The notes beneath the pieces are model-generated. The model was not told where the DNA came from and did not search any database. It was given only the letters and a program-made list of their open reading frames with translations. A DNA stretch of 64,000 nt from an uncultured Spirochaetota bacterium (lineage in GTDB: Bacteria; Spirochaetota; UBA4802; UBA5550), in contig CALMRZ010000017.1 of NCBI GenBank assembly GCA_937872225.1, positions 156,325 to 220,324 on the forward strand, given 5' to 3'. This document shows positions 37,100 to 46,405 of the stretch, in pieces; within the stretch, counting starts at the first letter, position 1, and the number at the start of each line of letters is the position of its first letter. Both the position numbers and the translations under genes were made by a program.

Positions 37100-37828
37100 A
37101 TGAACAGGGCTCGGTGGACCTTCATCATCCTGGTGTTGTTTCTCCTGATTGACTGGTCCGAGTATGACAGTAGCGGTCCCATGGCTTTCGCTGAAAATTT
37201 TACGATCGCCTCTTTTTCGACTTCCATCGACGGCCAGGACGACAATGTAAAGCGCAATATCATGATTGCCTGCCGTAAGCTCAACGGCACGGTGCTGTCG
37301 CCGAATTCGGTATTTTCATTCAATGCCGTTGTCGGTGAGGGATCTGCCCAGAACGGATTTGTGCCGGGCAGGGTGCTGTACCGGGACCGGGTGGCCATGG
37401 AACCTGGCGGCGGACTGTGCCAGGTGTCATCGACACTTTACAATGCACTCCTCATGGCGGGATGCACCATCATCGAGCGTCATCGTCATTCCCAGCCTGT
37501 TTCGTATGTTCCGATGGGACTGGATGCGACTATAAAATACGGGAAAAAAGACCTCAGGATAAGGAATACCTATCACTATGCCTTGAAGATTGAAATGACC
37601 GCCGGCGATTCCAGTATCGCGGTCAAGGTCATGGCGGGGCAAAAAATGCCCTATCGGTATGAAATCTACACAGAGGAGGATGTGCAGGCGGTCCCTGTTT
37701 CGGAAGATACAGAGAGGGTGCGGCAGGGGGTGTCGGTTTTTGTGTATCGGAAGAGATACCAGGAAGACAAGCTGGTTGAAAATATGCTCCTGTACAAAGA
37801 TTATTATCCGCCGGTGTATGAACGGTGA
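37100..37828 (+). CDS. VanW family protein
   Basis: A 242-residue exported protein with an N-terminal hydrophobic segment (FIILVLFLLIDW). The VanW domain is clear: NIMIACRKLNGTVLSPNSVFSFN, then GSAQNGFVPGRVL, the glycine-rich GGGLCQVSSTLYNALLMAG and HRHSQPVSYVPMGLDATI. VanW occurs in some vancomycin-resistance clusters and widely elsewhere; its biochemical role is unsettled but it acts at the cell envelope. GGTGG precedes the ATG. No resistance ligase or dehydrogenase is nearby, so antibiotic resistance should not be assumed. It leads the run to the AMMECR1 and macroglobulin genes. Confidence 0.88.
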   Translation: MNRARWTFIILVLFLLIDWSEYDSSGPMAFAENFTIASFSTSIDGQDDNVKRNIMIACRKLNGTVLSPNSVFSFNAVVGEGSAQNGFVPGRVLYRDRVAMEPGGGLCQVSSTLYNALLMAGCTIIERHRHSQPVSYVPMGLDATIKYGKKDLRIRNTYHYALKIEMTAGDSSIAVKVMAGQKMPYRYEIYTEEDVQAVPVSEDTERVRQGVSVFVYRKRYQEDKLVENMLLYKDYYPPVYER

Positions 37829-37846
37829 TTGCCGGGGATTGATCAG

Positions 37847-38464
37847 ATGAAAATCCGAATTCGATACAGTATTCTGGCGGCGGCAGGTGTGCTACTGTTT
37901 GCTGCCATGGCCTTGCCGCAGGAATTTCAAACCGTTGAGGATCCCCTGATCTCGCAGTGGAGGGAATTTTCAGGCAAGCCGGAATGTAAAAAGCTTCTCC
38001 AGTGGCTCCGGTGTCAGGCCAGGGCAAGGCTCACCGGCACGAGGTGCGGTGAACGTTTTGATGCCCTGACGCCGGGTTATTTCGGCCGTCTCGGTTTGTT
38101 CGTGACCCTGAAAAAAGGGGGCAGGGTGCGGGGCTGTTTCGGTGCTTTTTCCCACAGCATCACCGACGCGGGAACTCTCCTCAATGATTATCTTGACGGC
38201 GCCCTTACCAGGGATCCGCGGTACAACCCACTTGATGTTGCGGAGCTGGCGGATACCCGGATAATCATAACGGTCACGTCACAGCCCTTGCCCGTCAATG
38301 ATATTGATTCAATTGACGTGCGCAATTTCGGCATCACGCTGCTGTGCGGAAATGAGACCACGGTTTTTGTTCCTGCCGAAATTAGAAGCTCATCATATAT
38401 TGAAAAAAAAATACGCGGTTCGGCATGCCAGATCTCCATGTTCAGGGCGGTGACGCTGCAGTAG
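37847..38464 (+). CDS. Exported AMMECR1-domain protein (AmmeMemoRadiSam A-like)
   Basis: A 205-residue protein with the AMMECR1 core: GLFVTLKKGGRVRGCFGAF, then ALTRDPRYNPL and a TRIIITVTS strand. AMMECR1 proteins are normally cytosolic; here the start is a signal peptide or anchor (ILAAAGVLLFAAMALPQ). The conserved RGCFG is intact. The ATG 37847 is preferred over a TTG at 37829 because the signal sequence begins there and GGGGA precedes it. Function of the family is unknown; the bacterial form usually sits with Memo and radical-SAM partners, which are absent here. It lies 18 nt after vanW. Confidence 0.82.
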   Translation: MKIRIRYSILAAAGVLLFAAMALPQEFQTVEDPLISQWREFSGKPECKKLLQWLRCQARARLTGTRCGERFDALTPGYFGRLGLFVTLKKGGRVRGCFGAFSHSITDAGTLLNDYLDGALTRDPRYNPLDVAELADTRIIITVTSQPLPVNDIDSIDVRNFGITLLCGNETTVFVPAEIRSSSYIEKKIRGSACQISMFRAVTLQ

Positions 38465-38501
38465 TGGAGCCTCTATGCCATTGCGGCAGCGGGTGGCATG
38501 C

Positions 38502-38515
38502 TTCCCTGCAGGGAA
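38502..38515. repeat. 14-bp perfect palindrome before the macroglobulin gene
   Basis: TTCCCTGCAGGGAA sits 21 bp upstream of the macroglobulin ATG, between it and the AMMECR1 gene. It may be a repressor site or a small hairpin; nothing identifies the protein that would bind. Confidence 0.35.
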
Positions 38516-38536
38516 TATTTATTATTGGAGGACCCG

Positions 38537-41500
38537 ATGTTAAAAAAAATTGTACTGAATGGCGCCCTTATCGCTATCGGCGTCTTTTTTCTCAGTTGTG
38601 ATACGGCAGAGGTAAAGCGTCTTTCCGACGGCCGAAGCCTGTACGGCGGGGACAGTAAAAAATTATCGGGTAAATCCGCGATCGAAGGATATGTGATAGA
38701 TACCGTTACCAAAAAGGGGATAAAAAACGCGAAGGTTGAAATCAAGAATGCCAACATGGGCGTCGGCTATTACCTCCGCGAAACGGAATGGAACGGTTAT
38801 TTTAAAATCGATGATTTCATTCCCTATATCAAATACATGGTTGAAGTGTCCGCAGAAGGATACGTTACCTATACATCCACCGGCGCGGTTTCAGAGGGGT
38901 CCCACAAGATAGAACTCAGGCCTGAATCGGTCTTGACCGGTACCGTCTGTAACAGCAGGGGGGAACCGCTCAGGGGCATTGAGGTCAAGCTGAATACCTA
39001 TAACGAGGAGAGCGGCGAGGAAGGGGAGTATGCGTCGCCCAAACCAAGGATGAGCGCCACGGACCAGAACGGACTTTACCGCTTTGACAAACTCCCGGCC
39101 GGGTCCTACCTGGCGACCTTTTCGGGGCCCGGCTTCATAACCGAAACCGCGCAGCTTCAAAAAATAAAGGAGGGGGAGACCTTTACCCTGCCCATGGTCA
39201 TGATCCGTCCGGCGACGGTAACAGGCGTGGTGACCATAGAGGGCATCGAAACCCCGGCTATAAACGTTGATGTGACCCTCAGCGGCAATGTGACCTATTC
39301 TGCGACGACCTACCAGGACGGGACGTTCCGCCTCGAGGATGTTAAACCCGGCAATTATAAAATGAAGGTCAGCCACCAGGGATTTTATGATCTGCAGGGT
39401 CGGGAAATACGGATCCATGAAGGGGAAAAACGTGACCGGGTCAATTTCACGGTCAGGGCCAAGGAACCCCAGGTACAGGTCTATGCCCACCGGTATACCT
39501 TTTCGCCCGGCGATACCGTTGAATTTAATTTACGATCGCTTCGCCTCGAAAGCCTGAGGGTTACCATCTACAGGGTCCCCGTGGACCTGCTGGTGCGGGG
39601 CGGCGTTGATCCGGATACAATCAATCCCGAGGAGTCGGGATTGAAAGCGGTGACGTCCTGGGACGAGCCGATCAGGGAATTCGAACCCTACGAGTGGCGG
39701 TACCAGTCCCTGCAGGTGAAAACCGCCATGCCCACCGGCGGGTACTGCGTCGAGGTGAAGGGTGCGGGGAAGGTCATAAGCAGGAAGTTCTTCTCCCTTA
39801 CCACGGTAGGTGTCGTTATGAAGCGCTCGCAGGATTCCATCTTCGCCTACGTCACGAACCTTGTGGACAACACGCCGATTCCTGACGCCAGAATCGCGGT
39901 TTTTGATGCCACACCGGTACAGAAGAAAGGGAAGAAAAGGGCGACCTATAAGGCCCCTGAAAAGGTGGAGGACCTACCGGTTGCCCTGGTGCTTAAGGGA
40001 ACGACCGATGTTGAGGGTATCTATCATAGAAAGATACAATCCAGCAAATACCTGTCCACCATTGTCATAGCTAAGGACGGGAGCTATGCGCTCTGCAACA
40101 CCGGCGCCCCGTCGTCCTTTGAGAAGGAGCAGAAAAAATATTTCATTTATACTGACAGGCCCGTGTACAGGGCCGGGGACACGGTCCATTACAAGATAAT
40201 CGGCAAAAACCGGGAACGGCGTTTTGTGCCGGTCGCGGGTCAGAAAATCTATTACAAGATCAGAAACTGGGACATGGACAGGACCATTGACGAAGGTGAG
40301 GCTTCCCTTGACGACTGGGGGGTTGCTGACAGCAAGGTGGTGCTGTCCCGGGAAGGAAACCTGGGCATTCACGAGATCATGGTGGGGCCGTCGGAAAATA
40401 ATCTCTACAGCAGGGGGAAATTTTACGTTGAGCAGTACCGCAAGCCGGAATTTGTCATCAATGTCACCCCCGCCAAGGAATACTTTATTAACGGCGATAC
40501 GGCGGAATTCAAGGTGGAAGCGAAGTATTTTTTCGGCGCTCCCCTGAAGGGCGCCCTGGTGAAATACCGTTTTTATGAAACGAAACTCCGGGACGATGAT
40601 ACCAGCTACTGGTGGGAGCAGGATTACGGGACCGGCGGTTCCTACAACCGGATAATTCTGGAAGGGGAAAAATACGCTGATAATGACGGCATCGCGGTGC
40701 TGCGTCTCCATGCAGGCAATTATCCCTACGACCGTGAGATAACCTGCGAGGCCACCGTGGTTGACCGATCCAATGTGAGTATCAGCTCCACGAACAAGGT
40801 CAAGGTGGGACGCGGTGAATACTATATAAAAATCGAACCGGCGCAGCATTTCTTCTCAAGCGGCGAAAACAAACCGGTCACGATACGCACCATGACCCAT
40901 ACCGGCAGGCCGTACCGGGCCAAGGTGAAGGTGGATCTGTACCGGTACATATGGAAGCCCTGGGAGCGGGTCTATGTCCATGACAGCAAGCCCCTCTTCT
41001 CTGAGCAGGTGGCCACGGACGATCGGGGTGCCGCCACGGTGGAACTGCCGAAACAGTTCAGCTTCTACGGAGAATTCGACCTCGTGGTCAACGGGGTTGA
41101 CCGCAAGGACAATGTCGTCTCCGCTTCGCGGGTGATATGGATCTACAGCATGGAAGGGGCCAGGGTCGCGTCGCGGTTCAAGAACCTGGAGCTCTCCGTC
41201 AATTCCACGGAGCTGACCAAGCCCGGTGAGATCACCTGCCTCATCAAGAGCTGCTTCACCGATGCCTATGTATGCGTCACCCTTGAAGGCAGAGACGTGT
41301 ATGAATCGAAGGTGATAAAGATGACCGGTAATATCATGCCGGTGAAATTCGACATCAAGCCGGAATACGCGCCGAACCTCTATGTTACGGCAACCATGCA
41401 GCGGAAGAGGGCCCTCTATACGTCATCGGTGGGCGTCTCCCTGCCGATCCATGATACGGCCCTCACTATTTCCATAGAGACCGATAAGGCGAAATACCTG

Positions 41501-43915
41501 CCGGGGGAAAAGGCAAATGTTCTTCTCAGGGCTGTGGACGGAAACGGCAAGCCGGTGAAGGCGGACCTTTCCCTGGCGGCGGTTGACGAGGCTATATTTC
41601 AGGTCCGCTATGACCATACGCCCCTGATGAGGGATTACTTTTACACGAAGATATCCAACTGGGTCCTCACCAGTTATTCATACCCCATAACCATGCTGGC
41701 TGGAGCCGCAAAGGACGGCAAGGTGAAGGTGAGGGAGAAATTCGAGGACACGGCATTCTGGTCAGCGAAGATCAGGACCGGCGATGACGGGACCGCCCGG
41801 GTGAATTTCACCCTGCCGGACAACCTGACCACCTGGCGGCTCACTGCGCGGGGACATGACCGGGAAGGCCGGATGGGCGAAAAGAAGAGCACGTTCCTCG
41901 TGACCCAGGACCTGATCGCACGCATCGGCAAACCGCGCTTCATGGTGGAAGGGGACACCCTGGATCTGATTGGCATTGTGAACAGCAATACCGAACGGGG
42001 GCTCAAGAAAGTTGACACCATATTCAAGGCTGACGATAAGGTCCTGGCTGCGGAAGAAGAGGTGTCAATCAGCCTGCCTCCTTTCGGTTCAGCCCGTAAT
42101 TATTATCCCTACAAGGTCCCGAAAGACAAGCGCGAGGTGGCGCTACAGTTTTCAGCGTTGTCGATCCTGGACGCCAGGGACGCGCTCAAGGTTGCGGTAC
42201 CGGTGGAGCGGCGGGGGACTCCCTTCAAACTCTACGGTATCGGCGACATGGCTGCCAACAGGACCGTCACGGTAACGCCCCTTGCGGAAACGGATGATTT
42301 TAACTTTGTCGCTGAATCAGTGACCGTATCGGTCAGTCCGTCCCCCATCATACAGATGCTCAGGGCCACGAAATACCTGAGCGAGTACCCCTACGGCTGT
42401 ATCGAGCAGGCCCTGAACAGCTTCATCCCGAACCTTGCCCTGAACCGGATGCTTAAGCAGAAGGGCTATGACCGCTTCATCAATGACAAGGCGAAGAAAA
42501 AGCTCGATGATAAAGTCAGCGCCGGCGTGGACCGGATCCAGCGCTATCAGAATGACGACGGCACCTGGGGATGGTGGTCCGGGAGCCGCGGCAACGCCTT
42601 CGTCACCGGCTACGTTCTCTTTTCACTGCACCTGGCCCAAGAGGCGGGATTTGCCGTTGATAAATCGGTTGTCACGAAGGGCCTGGGCGCCATCAAGAAA
42701 TATTTTGCCAATCCCCAGCTTGAAGAATGGGACGCCATTGCGTACCTGATCTATATCAACGCCCTCTGGGGACGATGGGACCATGAGATTTTCAAAAAGA
42801 TACTCAAGGTAAATGAGTCGGGCACGTACCAGACTGCCTGCCTGGTAAAAGCCTTGTCATTGGCTAAGTCCCATCCAACGTTGACTGATGAAATGAAGAG
42901 CGACATAAACGGCACGCTGCCGAAACTGGTTGAGTCCATTATCCAGACCGTTAAAAAGGACGGCCGCGGCATTTACTGGGAGAGCCGGGGCAGGGACCGC
43001 TGGAGCTGGCCCGGGGGCGAAACGGAGATGACGGCCCACGTGCTGTCGGCGCTGGTAAGCGCGGGGGACCGTTCGACGCTTCCGGCACAGTTGGTGCGCT
43101 CCCTGTGCGGTCGGTCCCGCGGTGACTCATGGAACTCCACCAAGGAAACCGCCACCGTCATGCTGGCCCTGTGCGGTTATCTTGAGCAGTATGGAGGTTC
43201 AGCCGTCACCAGGGGGAATGTCATGTTCAGCCTGGACGGGAAAAAAATCGCCGATGTTGACTACGATCTGGAGAATCCCGGAATAATGGAAAAACTCACG
43301 CGAAAGATTGAACTTGCGGGGGAACGCCCGCGGGCATCGTTTACCGTCAGCGCAGACGGGAATGCTGGCGCGGACGTGAACTTTGACGTAACCATTGCCG
43401 GCACCCTCTATTTCAAGGAAAAGGGAGCGCTGTCCCTGGTGCGATCCGAAGAACGAGGCATTGGCGCGCTTTCCAACGGCATCAGGATCACCAGGACCTT
43501 CGCATCAATTATGAGAGTGCGCGATTCGCGCAACAATGAGTATATGGTGCCGCAGAGCCTGGCGGAAAAGAAGGTGATCCAGGTTGGTGACGAGCTCCTG
43601 GTCAAGGTGAAATTTCAGGCCCAGGACGACTTCCAGTACCTGGTCCTTGAGGATTATCTCCCGTCCGGCTTCGAAGTGACAAGAAACAACGCCTATGACG
43701 AATACACCCCCTTTGTCCACATCGAGCGGTGGGACAACCGGATGGTCTATTTCTTCACAGACCTTAAAAAGAACGAGGTCTATGAGGTGGCCTACATCGT
43801 CCGGGCGGAGCTGCCGGGTAATTTCATGGTAAAGCCGTCCCGGATGGAGTGTATGTACGAACCGACGATACAGGGATGGTCCGCGCCGGTTGTCGTGGAT
43901 GTGAAGAAAAAGTAA
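38537..43915 (+). CDS. Alpha-2-macroglobulin lipoprotein with thioester
   Basis: A 1792-residue envelope protein. It starts with a lipoprotein signal (lipobox FFLSC, Cys21). Three carboxypeptidase-regulatory-like beta domains follow (about 45-300), then macroglobulin domains, with the MG2 hallmark YTDRPVYRAGDTVHY. The thioester motif is YGCIEQ, with Cys 1288 and the E-Q pair intact, as in E. coli YfhM; an alpha-barrel TED domain surrounds it. Bacterial macroglobulins trap foreign proteases covalently in the periplasm. ATG 38537 is chosen because GGAGG precedes it and the lipoprotein signal starts there. In many bacteria such genes sit next to pbpC; here LapA and a SpoIID-transpeptidase fusion follow. 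Confidence 0.93.
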   Translation: MLKKIVLNGALIAIGVFFLSCDTAEVKRLSDGRSLYGGDSKKLSGKSAIEGYVIDTVTKKGIKNAKVEIKNANMGVGYYLRETEWNGYFKIDDFIPYIKYMVEVSAEGYVTYTSTGAVSEGSHKIELRPESVLTGTVCNSRGEPLRGIEVKLNTYNEESGEEGEYASPKPRMSATDQNGLYRFDKLPAGSYLATFSGPGFITETAQLQKIKEGETFTLPMVMIRPATVTGVVTIEGIETPAINVDVTLSGNVTYSATTYQDGTFRLEDVKPGNYKMKVSHQGFYDLQGREIRIHEGEKRDRVNFTVRAKEPQVQVYAHRYTFSPGDTVEFNLRSLRLESLRVTIYRVPVDLLVRGGVDPDTINPEESGLKAVTSWDEPIREFEPYEWRYQSLQVKTAMPTGGYCVEVKGAGKVISRKFFSLTTVGVVMKRSQDSIFAYVTNLVDNTPIPDARIAVFDATPVQKKGKKRATYKAPEKVEDLPVALVLKGTTDVEGIYHRKIQSSKYLSTIVIAKDGSYALCNTGAPSSFEKEQKKYFIYTDRPVYRAGDTVHYKIIGKNRERRFVPVAGQKIYYKIRNWDMDRTIDEGEASLDDWGVADSKVVLSREGNLGIHEIMVGPSENNLYSRGKFYVEQYRKPEFVINVTPAKEYFINGDTAEFKVEAKYFFGAPLKGALVKYRFYETKLRDDDTSYWWEQDYGTGGSYNRIILEGEKYADNDGIAVLRLHAGNYPYDREITCEATVVDRSNVSISSTNKVKVGRGEYYIKIEPAQHFFSSGENKPVTIRTMTHTGRPYRAKVKVDLYRYIWKPWERVYVHDSKPLFSEQVATDDRGAATVELPKQFSFYGEFDLVVNGVDRKDNVVSASRVIWIYSMEGARVASRFKNLELSVNSTELTKPGEITCLIKSCFTDAYVCVTLEGRDVYESKVIKMTGNIMPVKFDIKPEYAPNLYVTATMQRKRALYTSSVGVSLPIHDTALTISIETDKAKYLPGEKANVLLRAVDGNGKPVKADLSLAAVDEAIFQVRYDHTPLMRDYFYTKISNWVLTSYSYPITMLAGAAKDGKVKVREKFEDTAFWSAKIRTGDDGTARVNFTLPDNLTTWRLTARGHDREGRMGEKKSTFLVTQDLIARIGKPRFMVEGDTLDLIGIVNSNTERGLKKVDTIFKADDKVLAAEEEVSISLPPFGSARNYYPYKVPKDKREVALQFSALSILDARDALKVAVPVERRGTPFKLYGIGDMAANRTVTVTPLAETDDFNFVAESVTVSVSPSPIIQMLRATKYLSEYPYGCIEQALNSFIPNLALNRMLKQKGYDRFINDKAKKKLDDKVSAGVDRIQRYQNDDGTWGWWSGSRGNAFVTGYVLFSLHLAQEAGFAVDKSVVTKGLGAIKKYFANPQLEEWDAIAYLIYINALWGRWDHEIFKKILKVNESGTYQTACLVKALSLAKSHPTLTDEMKSDINGTLPKLVESIIQTVKKDGRGIYWESRGRDRWSWPGGETEMTAHVLSALVSAGDRSTLPAQLVRSLCGRSRGDSWNSTKETATVMLALCGYLEQYGGSAVTRGNVMFSLDGKKIADVDYDLENPGIMEKLTRKIELAGERPRASFTVSADGNAGADVNFDVTIAGTLYFKEKGALSLVRSEERGIGALSNGIRITRTFASIMRVRDSRNNEYMVPQSLAEKKVIQVGDELLVKVKFQAQDDFQYLVLEDYLPSGFEVTRNNAYDEYTPFVHIERWDNRMVYFFTDLKKNEVYEVAYIVRAELPGNFMVKPSRMECMYEPTIQGWSAPVVVDVKKK

Positions 43916-43937: not shown

Positions 43938-44026
43938 TCAGAACACCCCCCAACCCCCCGGAGGGAGCTTTTAATGCTAGTTTTGCTCAAATAAGTCCCC
44001 CTCCGGGGGGTTGGGGGCTTTTCTGA
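43938..44026. repeat. Large G/C-rich inverted repeat, possible dispersed element
   Basis: A perfect 19-bp arm CCCCCAACCCCCCGGAGGG (43947-43965) faces its complement at 43999-44017, with a 33-nt spacer; outer TCAGAA/TTCTGA (43938-43943, 44021-44026) extends it imperfectly to 28 bp. The spacer is A/T-rich. It fills the gap between the macroglobulin and lapA genes. It could end transcription, but a clean T run is absent; a REP- or MITE-like dispersed repeat is equally possible. Confidence 0.75.
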
Positions 44027-44057: not shown

Positions 44058-44273
44058 ATGAAACCGAAAACTATCGCGCTAATCGTCATGACCATTCTGC
44101 TGACAATACTGGTGATACAAAACACCCATTCAATTGCCCTGCATATATTCTTCTGGGCCCCGGAATTCCCCCTGATCATAGTGATCATAATCATTATGGG
44201 CGCAGGTTTTGGATTGGGCTTTTTTGCGAGAAATCTCATGGGCGTGGTCAAGAAAAAAGGGGATGATTATTAA
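44058..44273 (+). CDS. LapA domain membrane protein
   Basis: A 71-residue protein with two transmembrane helices (TIALIVMTILLTILVIQNTH and PLIIVIIIIMGAGFGLGFFA) separated by SIALHIFFWAPEF, then a basic tail. This is the LapA (YciS) pattern: inner-membrane protein linked in E. coli to control of lipopolysaccharide assembly. Its stop overlaps the start of the SpoIID-transpeptidase gene by one base, so the two are coupled. Confidence 0.8.
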   Translation: MKPKTIALIVMTILLTILVIQNTHSIALHIFFWAPEFPLIIVIIIIMGAGFGLGFFARNLMGVVKKKGDDY

Positions 44274-46405
44274 TGTCCCTGCCTGATGGTCACAGATACC
44301 AGTATTCAATCAAGGTTCTGCCGGTTGTACTGCCAATGAAGCACTATAGGGTCATACTGTTTTCGTGTATCATGGCTTTTCTCGTTTTCCCTCTCAATGC
44401 GGAAACGGTTTCTGATCCAGTGGTAACCATCCATGTGTTATCAAAACAGGTCCGGTTGCTTAAAAGCGGCGCTGTAAAAAAAATATCCATAATGATAAAA
44501 AAGGATTCGATTATCAGGGATGAGTCCGGCAACAGATTGCCGGATGGAAAAATCATTGAATTCATTGCCCATGGAGGGACAGTGGATGCTTATCTTGATT
44601 CAAAACTGCTGCAGGGTCCCGGCTCCCTAGTCATTTTTTCCGGATCGAACATGGACGCGGCCGAGGTCTCCATTGATGGCGCCGTCAGGAATTATCCTCT
44701 CCCCATGACTCTCCGATTCAAAAATAATGATCTCAGGATCTATGTGGCGGAACGTCTCAGCAGGTATGCCGTTGATTCGGCCCTGGCCGAATACAACGGG
44801 AATCAATGGAAAGAAACAGAGGGAATCATGGCCCTGGCGCATTTGATAAGGGCCCGATATTTTTTAGGGAAAAAGGGGCATCAGCATGGGGAAGGCGATT
44901 TCTGCGACCTCACCCATTGCCAGGTGTACCGCGGGCGGATAGAAAGCCGTCTGAGATTCGATGATGACTGGGTGATCGACCATGAAAAAATGAGGGATAA
45001 CCTTTTTTTTCATTCACGGTGCGGGGGAAAGACCTGTGATCAGGGCGTATTTACCGGCAGAAGACACTCGGCTGGCACCAATGGGGCGGGTGTCAGGGAT
45101 TGGCTGTATCGGGAAGGGATCCGCCTCTGCTCGGGGAAGGACTCCCACTGGGAACGGTCCATCAGCCAGGATGAACTGTGTTCTATCTTTTTCCCCGGGA
45201 AAAAGGATGCCGGCAATTCAGCAATCACACTCAGCCATGACACGAATAATCTGAAAGTCAATGTCACATCATCTTGCGATAATCTGCAGTTGGCGTTAGA
45301 ATCATTCCGATTAACAATAAACCGGGTCAAGGGATGGAATTTCATCCGCAGCAACAACTATACCATTTCAGAGAAAATCATTGATGGGCAAAAGAATTTC
45401 CATTTCAAGGGGGAGGGCCTCGGCCATGGCGTCGGTCTGTGCCAGCACGGGGCCATGGCCCTGTCCAAGCTGGGATACAACAGGTACGAGATACTGGAGC
45501 ACTATTATCCCGACATCCAATTCATGCATATCGGATCAAGTGCATGCCTGTCTCCCTATTGCTCCTATTGTCTTTTTGATGTTGCAACAGGAAAAATCAT
45601 TTCATCAACCCAGGGGCCGGGATTTTTGCAGAGAAAAGTTCCTCCCGGTTCACTGTTCAAGCTGATCGTGGCCCTGTATGTCGCGGCGGAGCGGCCGGAC
45701 ATTTTTAATGACTATGCGCATAACTGCTCTGGACGAAACAGGGACGATACAAATATTCCAGAGCGATGCTGGAAGCCGAAGGGTCATGGCATGGTGAGGA
45801 TGAAGGATGCCATTCCTAATTCATGCAATCTCTATTTTGCCTCTCTGTACAAAATCATATCCGAAAAAAAATTCAGGATCTTTTATCGGGATTGGTGCGC
45901 TTCAGCAGGAATTAGTGCGGCGCTTCCGGCAACCTCAAGTGTACGGCAGTGGGCGGAACTTCTGGCCGGACTTGATTTCAGAGTGTCTTTTACCGTCAGC
46001 GATTGCATGCGCCTGGCCCGTTATCTTTATTGCGGCAATGCCGGGGAAAGCCTGGCGGCAATGCCGGGTACAAAAATCAGCTATCAGGAGAAAGTAAAAA
46101 TCTTCAATGGTTTGCAGGAAACCTTTACCCGGGGAACAGCCCGTGAACAGAAAAAACGATCAGGCGCGTTCTATAGTTACCAATGCCTTGAAAATGCGGG
46201 TAAAGATAATGTGAAGACACCATTGACGGAACTCTGGGGAAAAACGTCGACCGTTATCGATGGGACGAATAAGCCGGAGAGCTGCGGCATTTTCATGGGC
46301 GGCAACGGCACACGGGGTATCATTGTCATAGTGAGAAAAGCGAACGGCAATATGGCTTCCCGCTGGGCCAGAAGGATCCTCTCGAAAACCGTCCCCGGGG
46401 AATAA
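44273..46405 (+). CDS. SpoIID/LytB domain fused to a penicillin-binding transpeptidase-like domain
   Basis: A 710-residue chimera. Residues ~50-430 form a SpoIID/LytB domain: the presumed catalytic acid E183 (TEGIMALAHLIRARYFL), CDLTHCQVYRG, and GHGVGLCQHGAMAL near the end. SpoIID cuts glycan strands lacking stem peptides. Residues ~440-710 carry the three transpeptidase motifs in order: SLFK at 460-463 (SxxK), SCN at 517-519 (SxN) and KTS at 657-659 (for KTG). Spacings of 57 and 140 residues match real PBPs (E. coli PBP3: 52 and 135). A signal peptide begins at an internal ATG (44336); ATG 44273 has an AGGGGA site and overlaps lapA. The start is thus uncertain. Confidence 0.8.
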   Translation: MSLPDGHRYQYSIKVLPVVLPMKHYRVILFSCIMAFLVFPLNAETVSDPVVTIHVLSKQVRLLKSGAVKKISIMIKKDSIIRDESGNRLPDGKIIEFIAHGGTVDAYLDSKLLQGPGSLVIFSGSNMDAAEVSIDGAVRNYPLPMTLRFKNNDLRIYVAERLSRYAVDSALAEYNGNQWKETEGIMALAHLIRARYFLGKKGHQHGEGDFCDLTHCQVYRGRIESRLRFDDDWVIDHEKMRDNLFFHSRCGGKTCDQGVFTGRRHSAGTNGAGVRDWLYREGIRLCSGKDSHWERSISQDELCSIFFPGKKDAGNSAITLSHDTNNLKVNVTSSCDNLQLALESFRLTINRVKGWNFIRSNNYTISEKIIDGQKNFHFKGEGLGHGVGLCQHGAMALSKLGYNRYEILEHYYPDIQFMHIGSSACLSPYCSYCLFDVATGKIISSTQGPGFLQRKVPPGSLFKLIVALYVAAERPDIFNDYAHNCSGRNRDDTNIPERCWKPKGHGMVRMKDAIPNSCNLYFASLYKIISEKKFRIFYRDWCASAGISAALPATSSVRQWAELLAGLDFRVSFTVSDCMRLARYLYCGNAGESLAAMPGTKISYQEKVKIFNGLQETFTRGTAREQKKRSGAFYSYQCLENAGKDNVKTPLTELWGKTSTVIDGTNKPESCGIFMGGNGTRGIIVIVRKANGNMASRWARRILSKTVPGE

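Follow-up and report, generated by a model that had tools for sequence, protein, structure and literature searches.

A fused SpoIID and penicillin-binding protein gene beside an alpha-2-macroglobulin gene in spirochaetes

INTRODUCTION

The role of bacterial alpha-2-macroglobulins (A2Ms), and the reason why their genes lie beside those of cell wall enzymes, is an unsettled question that is addressed by a locus of an uncultured Spirochaetota bacterium. In the window, the whole stretch of 64,000 nucleotides that was analyzed (contig CALMRZ010000017.1, positions 156,325 to 220,324), an A2M gene is followed by a gene whose product carries a SpoIID-type domain and a penicillin-binding protein (PBP) transpeptidase domain in a single chain. 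A first-pass annotation of this DNA had suggested that the fusion protein may replace PBP1C, the usual PBP partner of type I A2Ms, in an A2M-linked system of wall repair or defense. Here, we describe the fusion, its homologs, and its gene neighborhood, and we weigh PBP1C against other possible counterparts.

THE FUSION PROTEIN AND ITS PBP HALF

The fusion gene (44273..46405, forward strand, stop codon included) encodes 710 amino acids; an alternative in-frame ATG lies at position 44336 (M22). Its product begins with a predicted signal peptide or membrane segment (about residues 23 to 44; 44339..44404, forward strand), which was read from the sequence and appears as a helix at residues 25 to 37 in the structural model. 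A SpoIID-type domain (about residues 49 to 421; 44417..45535, forward strand) is followed by a class B PBP transpeptidase domain (residues 429 to 710; 45557..46402, forward strand), in which the motifs S460xxK463, S517-C-N519, and G656-K657-T658-S-T660 are found. The open reading frame, coordinates, and motifs of the first-pass annotation proved correct, as did the spacings of 57 and 140 residues that separate S460-K463, S517-N519, and K657-S659.

An AlphaFold model of the fusion, built from 18 homologs, had a mean pLDDT of 80.9 and a pTM of 0.81. Compared with the PDB by Foldseek, it matched Clostridioides difficile SpoVD and PBP3 as well as PBP2/PBP3 of other bacteria (best match, 4e-10), and also C. 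difficile SpoIID (5i1t; 1.3e-7), bearing out the PBP-like C-terminal fold that had been anticipated. The Pfam Transpeptidase model (PF00905) matched residues 433 to 540 (8.4e-7; 28.9 bits versus a cutoff of 22.1). Through a wider profile of A2M-linked PBPs, whose SxxK, SCN, and KTG motifs each line up with those of the solved PBP3 structure 7rd0 (3.5e-32), S460/K463, S517/N519, and K657-T658 of the fusion align with this structure. Within the limits of sequence and fold, the C-terminal half is thus built like a PBP. The third position of the KTG-type motif is S, A, or G among the fusions (GKT[SAG]T). The transpeptidase fold and the alignment of SxxK, SxN, and KTG are shared with class B PBPs (C. 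difficile PBP3 and SpoVD, and MrdA, which is PBP2), but the fusion lacks the pedestal or membrane-anchored dimerization region of these proteins and has the SpoIID domain there instead.

THE SPOIID HALF

When applied to the fusion alone, SpoIID models scored below their curated cutoffs (Pfam, 15.3 versus 23 bits; NCBIfam SpoIID_LytB, 3.5e-17 and 63.2 versus 83.3 bits); A2M-linked SpoIID relatives that are encoded by separate genes do exceed the family-model cutoff. By sequence, this half is placed as a divergent SpoIID-type domain and not as a named SpoIID. A profile of A2M-linked SpoIIDs with the fusion included matched C. difficile SpoIID at 1.9e-34, and in the profile alignment to the solved structure E173 is in register with the catalytic E101. 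The first-pass annotation had taken E183 as the characteristic glutamate of SpoIID; this assignment has to be given up in favor of E173, which does not vary among 18 fusions and 11 A2M-linked SpoIIDs. The stretch CQVYRG, likewise pointed out as a SpoIID mark, is indeed present, but it is better described as part of a zinc-type motif, H-x5-C-x3-H-C, whose residues H205, C211, H215, and C216 correspond to H134, C140, H145, and C146 of C. difficile SpoIID. H205, C211, and C216 are invariant among the fusions, and the position of H215 is occupied by C in some of them.

Catalysis by C. difficile SpoIID is carried out by E101, and the glycan has to be denuded (PMC6221140). The fusion shares the fold, the catalytic Glu, and the zinc-site residues with this enzyme (5i1t/5txu), which differs in being a stand-alone sporulation enzyme that is partnered with SpoIIP and has no PBP domain.

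HOMOLOGS AND ORIGIN

Full-length homologs with the same frame and architecture and 36 to 59% identity were found in 19 of 39 genomes of spirochaete relatives, the host's own copy being extra; the named relatives are metagenome-assembled genomes labeled Spirochaetes or Spirochaetota. E173, C211, C216, H385, S460, K463, S517, C518, N519, G656, K657, T658, and T660 are invariant in the 18 aligned fusions, so that the motifs are more than chance matches, an explanation that is ruled out by this invariance together with the fold. The central claim of the first-pass annotation, that SpoIID and PBP-type domains are joined in one protein, therefore stands on the conservation of both sets of catalytic residues, the domain matches, and the modeled fold.

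All fusions form one clade in a tree of the PBP domain (support 100/100), and full-length fusions are confined to one order among 393 genomes sampled from the phylum. Judged by its sequences, the fusion is old and of single origin, having arisen once inside this spirochaete order. The same tree sets the fusions and the A2M-linked PBPs of separate genes apart from housekeeping PBPs, with a weak separating branch (83/45), and these sequences suggest that the A2M-linked PBPs share an ancestor. In a tblastn search of plasmids, one lone PBP in Turneriella matched the fusion; the stretch around it contained no A2M.

GENE NEIGHBORHOOD OF THE FUSION

Upstream of the fusion lie genes for a VanW-domain protein, a candidate L,D-transpeptidase with GGGLCQVS and HRH motifs (37100..37828), an AMMECR1-domain protein whose N terminus has a hydrophobic stretch resembling a signal (37829..38464), and A2M (38498..43915), all on the forward strand; the first two are conserved neighbors. 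The A2M, called as 1,805 amino acids, has N-terminal CarboxypepD_reg repeats, the domains MG2, bait, A2M, TED, and bMG10, and a CIEQ thioester motif at residue 1301, so that the adjoining A2M gene of the first-pass annotation is real. A better start is probably the ATG at 38537, which is preceded by GGAGG. The host genome has a second A2M (L169:1902-8039; 2,045 amino acids, CSEQ motif), which has no PBP or other wall enzyme beside it.

Two small features separate A2M from the fusion. An inverted repeat with 28-nucleotide arms (43938..44026; 93% complementary) is a possible terminator, perhaps a repeated one, or a possible small repeated element; at G000:C21:49166-49236 its 19-mer core is found again as an identical, equally spaced pair, and contigs C49 and C78 have single copies. 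A small LapA-domain open reading frame (44058..44273, forward strand; 71 amino acids) follows, and the overlap of its stop codon with the start of the fusion (TAATG) suggests that the two are coupled in translation. In most other fusion loci, the gap between A2M and the fusion is too short for such a frame. With these features in between, cotranscription of A2M and the fusion is putative here.

The usual gene order is VanW–AMMECR1–A2M–fusion, and AMMECR1 and VanW are found upstream of A2M in most loci with enough flanking sequence. Every complete VanW protein of these loci keeps GGGxCQ; L,D-transpeptidases are found among VanW proteins, some of which lack that activity (PMC12729407). AMMECR1 with a signal-like N terminus adjoins A2M in many spirochaetes and in one Sericytochromatia locus. 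A close A2M ortholog is present in 24 of the 39 relatives and absent from 15. All 19 genomes with the fusion are among the 24, and the fusion occurs in none of the 15 (Fisher's exact test, P = 8e-7 for the 39 relatives, with kinship ignored). In 17 of the 19 it follows A2M on the same strand, mostly within about 400 bases and in two cases within 2.5 kb. The other two are G035, in which adjacency is not scorable as the genes are on two short contig pieces, and G020, in which the genes lie on different contigs, far from the contig ends. One genome (G016) has VanW, AMMECR1, and A2M and no fusion, and a chemotaxis receptor gene (L073:11237-12802) follows its A2M cluster instead. The fusion is thus not obligatory, and the linkage is not absolute, but the association of the fusion with A2M is a conserved pattern and not a coincidence.

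It could be argued that the fusion is a general wall-turnover enzyme, active in remodeling, and that A2M is a mere neighbor in an envelope gene cluster, with no physical or functional coupling. The repeat and the LapA frame between the two genes, the genomes G016 and G020, and the nature of the VanW and AMMECR1 neighbors, which are also of the envelope type or unassigned, are all compatible with such an arrangement. We nevertheless regard it as unlikely, since the fusion was never found without A2M in the genome set, and since the two further lines of evidence given below, recurrence of the linkage in several phyla and a precedent for physical binding of an A2M, also speak against it.

SEPARATE PBP AND SPOIID GENES IN OTHER LINEAGES

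Other spirochaetes, Myxococcota/Deltaproteobacteria, WOR-3, and Sericytochromatia have PBP and SpoIID genes immediately next to each other in the vicinity of A2M, in several cases together with DUF1175 and DUF2135 genes. Two fusion-free spirochaetes (L072 and L108) have the order DUF1175–A2M (CXEQ)–DUF2135–PBP–SpoIID, and a WOR-3 locus (L058) has DUF1175–A2M–PBP–SpoIID. In a Sericytochromatia locus (L059:8709-18805), PBP, SpoIID, AMMECR1, A2M, and VanW are all present as separate genes. Among SpoIID loci outside the spirochaetes, a PBP gene is directly upstream in 11, and A2M was found within the surrounding stretch analyzed in 7 of these 11 versus 1 of the 18 others scored (Fisher's exact test, P = 0.0014, for loci picked by SpoIID motifs and with kinship ignored). 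The split pairs resemble the fusion in having both domains, an A2M neighbor, and the catalytic motifs; they differ in that there are two genes, mostly PBP and then SpoIID, and usually DUF1175 and DUF2135 in place of VanW and AMMECR1. Because the two genes are adjacent elsewhere, the fusion joins two neighbor genes in reversed order. This recurrence over several phyla, as split genes and in the opposite domain order, speaks against A2M as a mere neighbor of a wall-turnover enzyme.

RELATION TO YFAQ AND MAGB

In Escherichia coli MG1655, the yfa genes are yfaA (DUF2138), yfaT (DUF1175), yfaS (A2M, a pseudogene in this strain), yfaQ (DUF2300), and yfaP (DUF2135); all five are intact on a Citrobacter plasmid. 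A plasmid search for YfaQ-type genes returned E. coli copies and one from Citrobacter only. The C-terminal half of YfaQ passes the Pfam SpoIID cutoff (27.0 versus 23 bits), and hhalign pairs its N-terminal half with the profile of A2M-linked PBPs (93%, 4e-8); this half carries SLWK, has SCG in place of SxN, and shows no clear KTG. The combined SpoIID set matched YfaQ weakly by hhalign (28% and 65%), and the SpoIID reading of YfaQ is taken from the Pfam score and from a published study, in which YfaQ was read as transpeptidase-like plus SpoIID-like and a yfaQ deletion gave wide cells and a profile resembling those of mepK and mepS mutants (PMC12282094). That paper makes no mention of a macroglobulin.

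Like YfaQ (tandem DUF2300, yfaATSQP operon), the fusion is a single exported protein with transpeptidase-like and SpoIID-like halves and an A2M next door. YfaQ differs in that the PBP half comes first, in its SCG and missing clear KTG, and in its DUF2300, which matched neither the fusion nor any of 20 relatives, making the fusion a counterpart and not a member of the YfaQ/MagB family. MagB is presumably a YfaQ homolog, judging by the operon layout. In Pseudomonas aeruginosa, MagB binds and anchors the type II A2M MagD, which in its absence leaves the membrane and is degraded (PMC5764988). Like the fusion, MagB is encoded together with an A2M and carries a membrane segment at its N-terminal end, which is a predicted one in the fusion; in contrast to the A2M beside the fusion, MagD has no thioester, and the putative homology of MagB to the fusion is deduced from operon layout. 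The binding of MagD by MagB is the precedent that also counts against an uncoupled wall-turnover enzyme.

MagB raises the possibility that the fusion is a scaffold first of all, chiefly anchoring and stabilizing A2M at the membrane, with enzymatic folds that bind peptidoglycan and do not catalyze. The dependence of MagD stability and membrane localization on MagB and the loss of SxN and a clear KTG in YfaQ, the apparent relative of MagB, would be in line with this role. However, both catalytic sets, that of the PBP and that of SpoIID, are complete and invariant in 18 divergent homologs, which would be unexpected for a protein that only binds, and we find such a noncatalytic scaffold improbable. 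As neither the Asn of SxN nor a clear KTG is present in YfaQ, the function of MagB/YfaQ may not carry over to the fusion.

How, then, does PBP1C compare? The type I pair of the E. coli YfhM/pbpC type also consists of a thioester A2M and a PBP, and the fusion, a protein with a PBP domain beside a thioester (type I-like) A2M, could be the PBP partner in the spirochaete. The four class A PBPs of the host are all under the PBP1C cutoff (308, 299, 282, and 343 versus 494 bits), so that a wall enzyme other than PBP1C beside A2M is plausible, and to this extent the first-pass annotation was reasonable. Its further step, from such a partner to a substitute for PBP1C, seems to us very improbable, and we rejected it as the main reading. 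PBP1C is a class A PBP with a glycosyltransferase, and neither a glycosyltransferase domain nor the PBP1C model was matched in the fusion; the transpeptidase domain is PBP2/SpoVD-like, and the DUF1175 and DUF2135 genes around the split forms belong to the yfa/mag gene set, in which YfaQ or MagB adjoins a type II A2M, and not to the pbpC set. On sequence grounds, the counterpart that suits the fusion best is YfaQ/MagB, with the domains swapped and the catalytic residues intact in the fusion, and not PBP1C.

PROPOSED FUNCTION AND IMPLICATIONS

We propose that the fusion is probably a bifunctional peptidoglycan enzyme that is exported and acts together with the A2M encoded next to it. The SpoIID half would cleave peptide-free glycan strands, and the PBP half would crosslink stem peptides or trim pentapeptides, acting on existing strands since there is no glycosyltransferase. 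Trimming by a carboxypeptidase activity might supply the VanW-type L,D-transpeptidase with tetrapeptide donors. The thioester A2M would trap proteases that breach the envelope, and the fusion may also hold A2M in place, by analogy with MagB. As a whole, the set would neutralize a protease that attacks the cell and would repair or restructure the wall where it has been damaged; the simplest reading is a protease trap that is coupled to a kit for mending the wall. It counts against this proposal that SpoIID of C. difficile depends on denuded glycan and that no amidase gene is evident in the fusion locus. No defense-system model was matched by PADLOC.

A broader proposal is more tentative, and we give it somewhat less than even weight. 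A five-part system, composed of VanW-type L,D-transpeptidase, AMMECR1, thioester A2M, PBP, and SpoIID and found whole in spirochaetes and in one Sericytochromatia locus, might couple protease trapping to local wall repair, with the fusion as an intact form that is ancestral or parallel to the degenerate YfaQ/MagB anchors.

In the open-access papers searched (which are not the entire literature), we found nothing relevant that joins SpoIID, AMMECR1, or VanW with A2M, and no description of the cross-phylum A2M–PBP–SpoIID set. Given that YfaQ has already been published as a transpeptidase-SpoIID protein, the fusion is a variant and not the first of its kind; what is new is the reversed domain order, the intact active sites, the thioester A2M, and the VanW and AMMECR1 partners. 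The locus represents a second, independent pairing of A2M with a peptidoglycan enzyme, with intact active sites and two enzymes per chain, and it links the A2M anchor MagB, the cell width protein YfaQ, and the L,D-transpeptidase VanW, which are kept apart in the literature cited. With PBP and SpoIID near A2M in other phyla, either as split genes or in the form of YfaQ, the protease traps of bacteria seem to be accompanied by a kit for wall remodeling. It is predicted that yfa/mag-type A2M partners either derive from wall-remodeling enzymes or imitate them, and the fusions offer proteins that are catalytically intact by sequence for biochemistry, where YfaQ looks degenerate.

DUF1175 itself, which usually neighbors A2M in yfa-type operons, weakly matched NlpC/P60 (for E. 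coli YfaT, L071:12337-12960, at 3.8e-4), hinting that it might be a papain-like wall peptidase and thus another wall enzyme of yfa-type operons.
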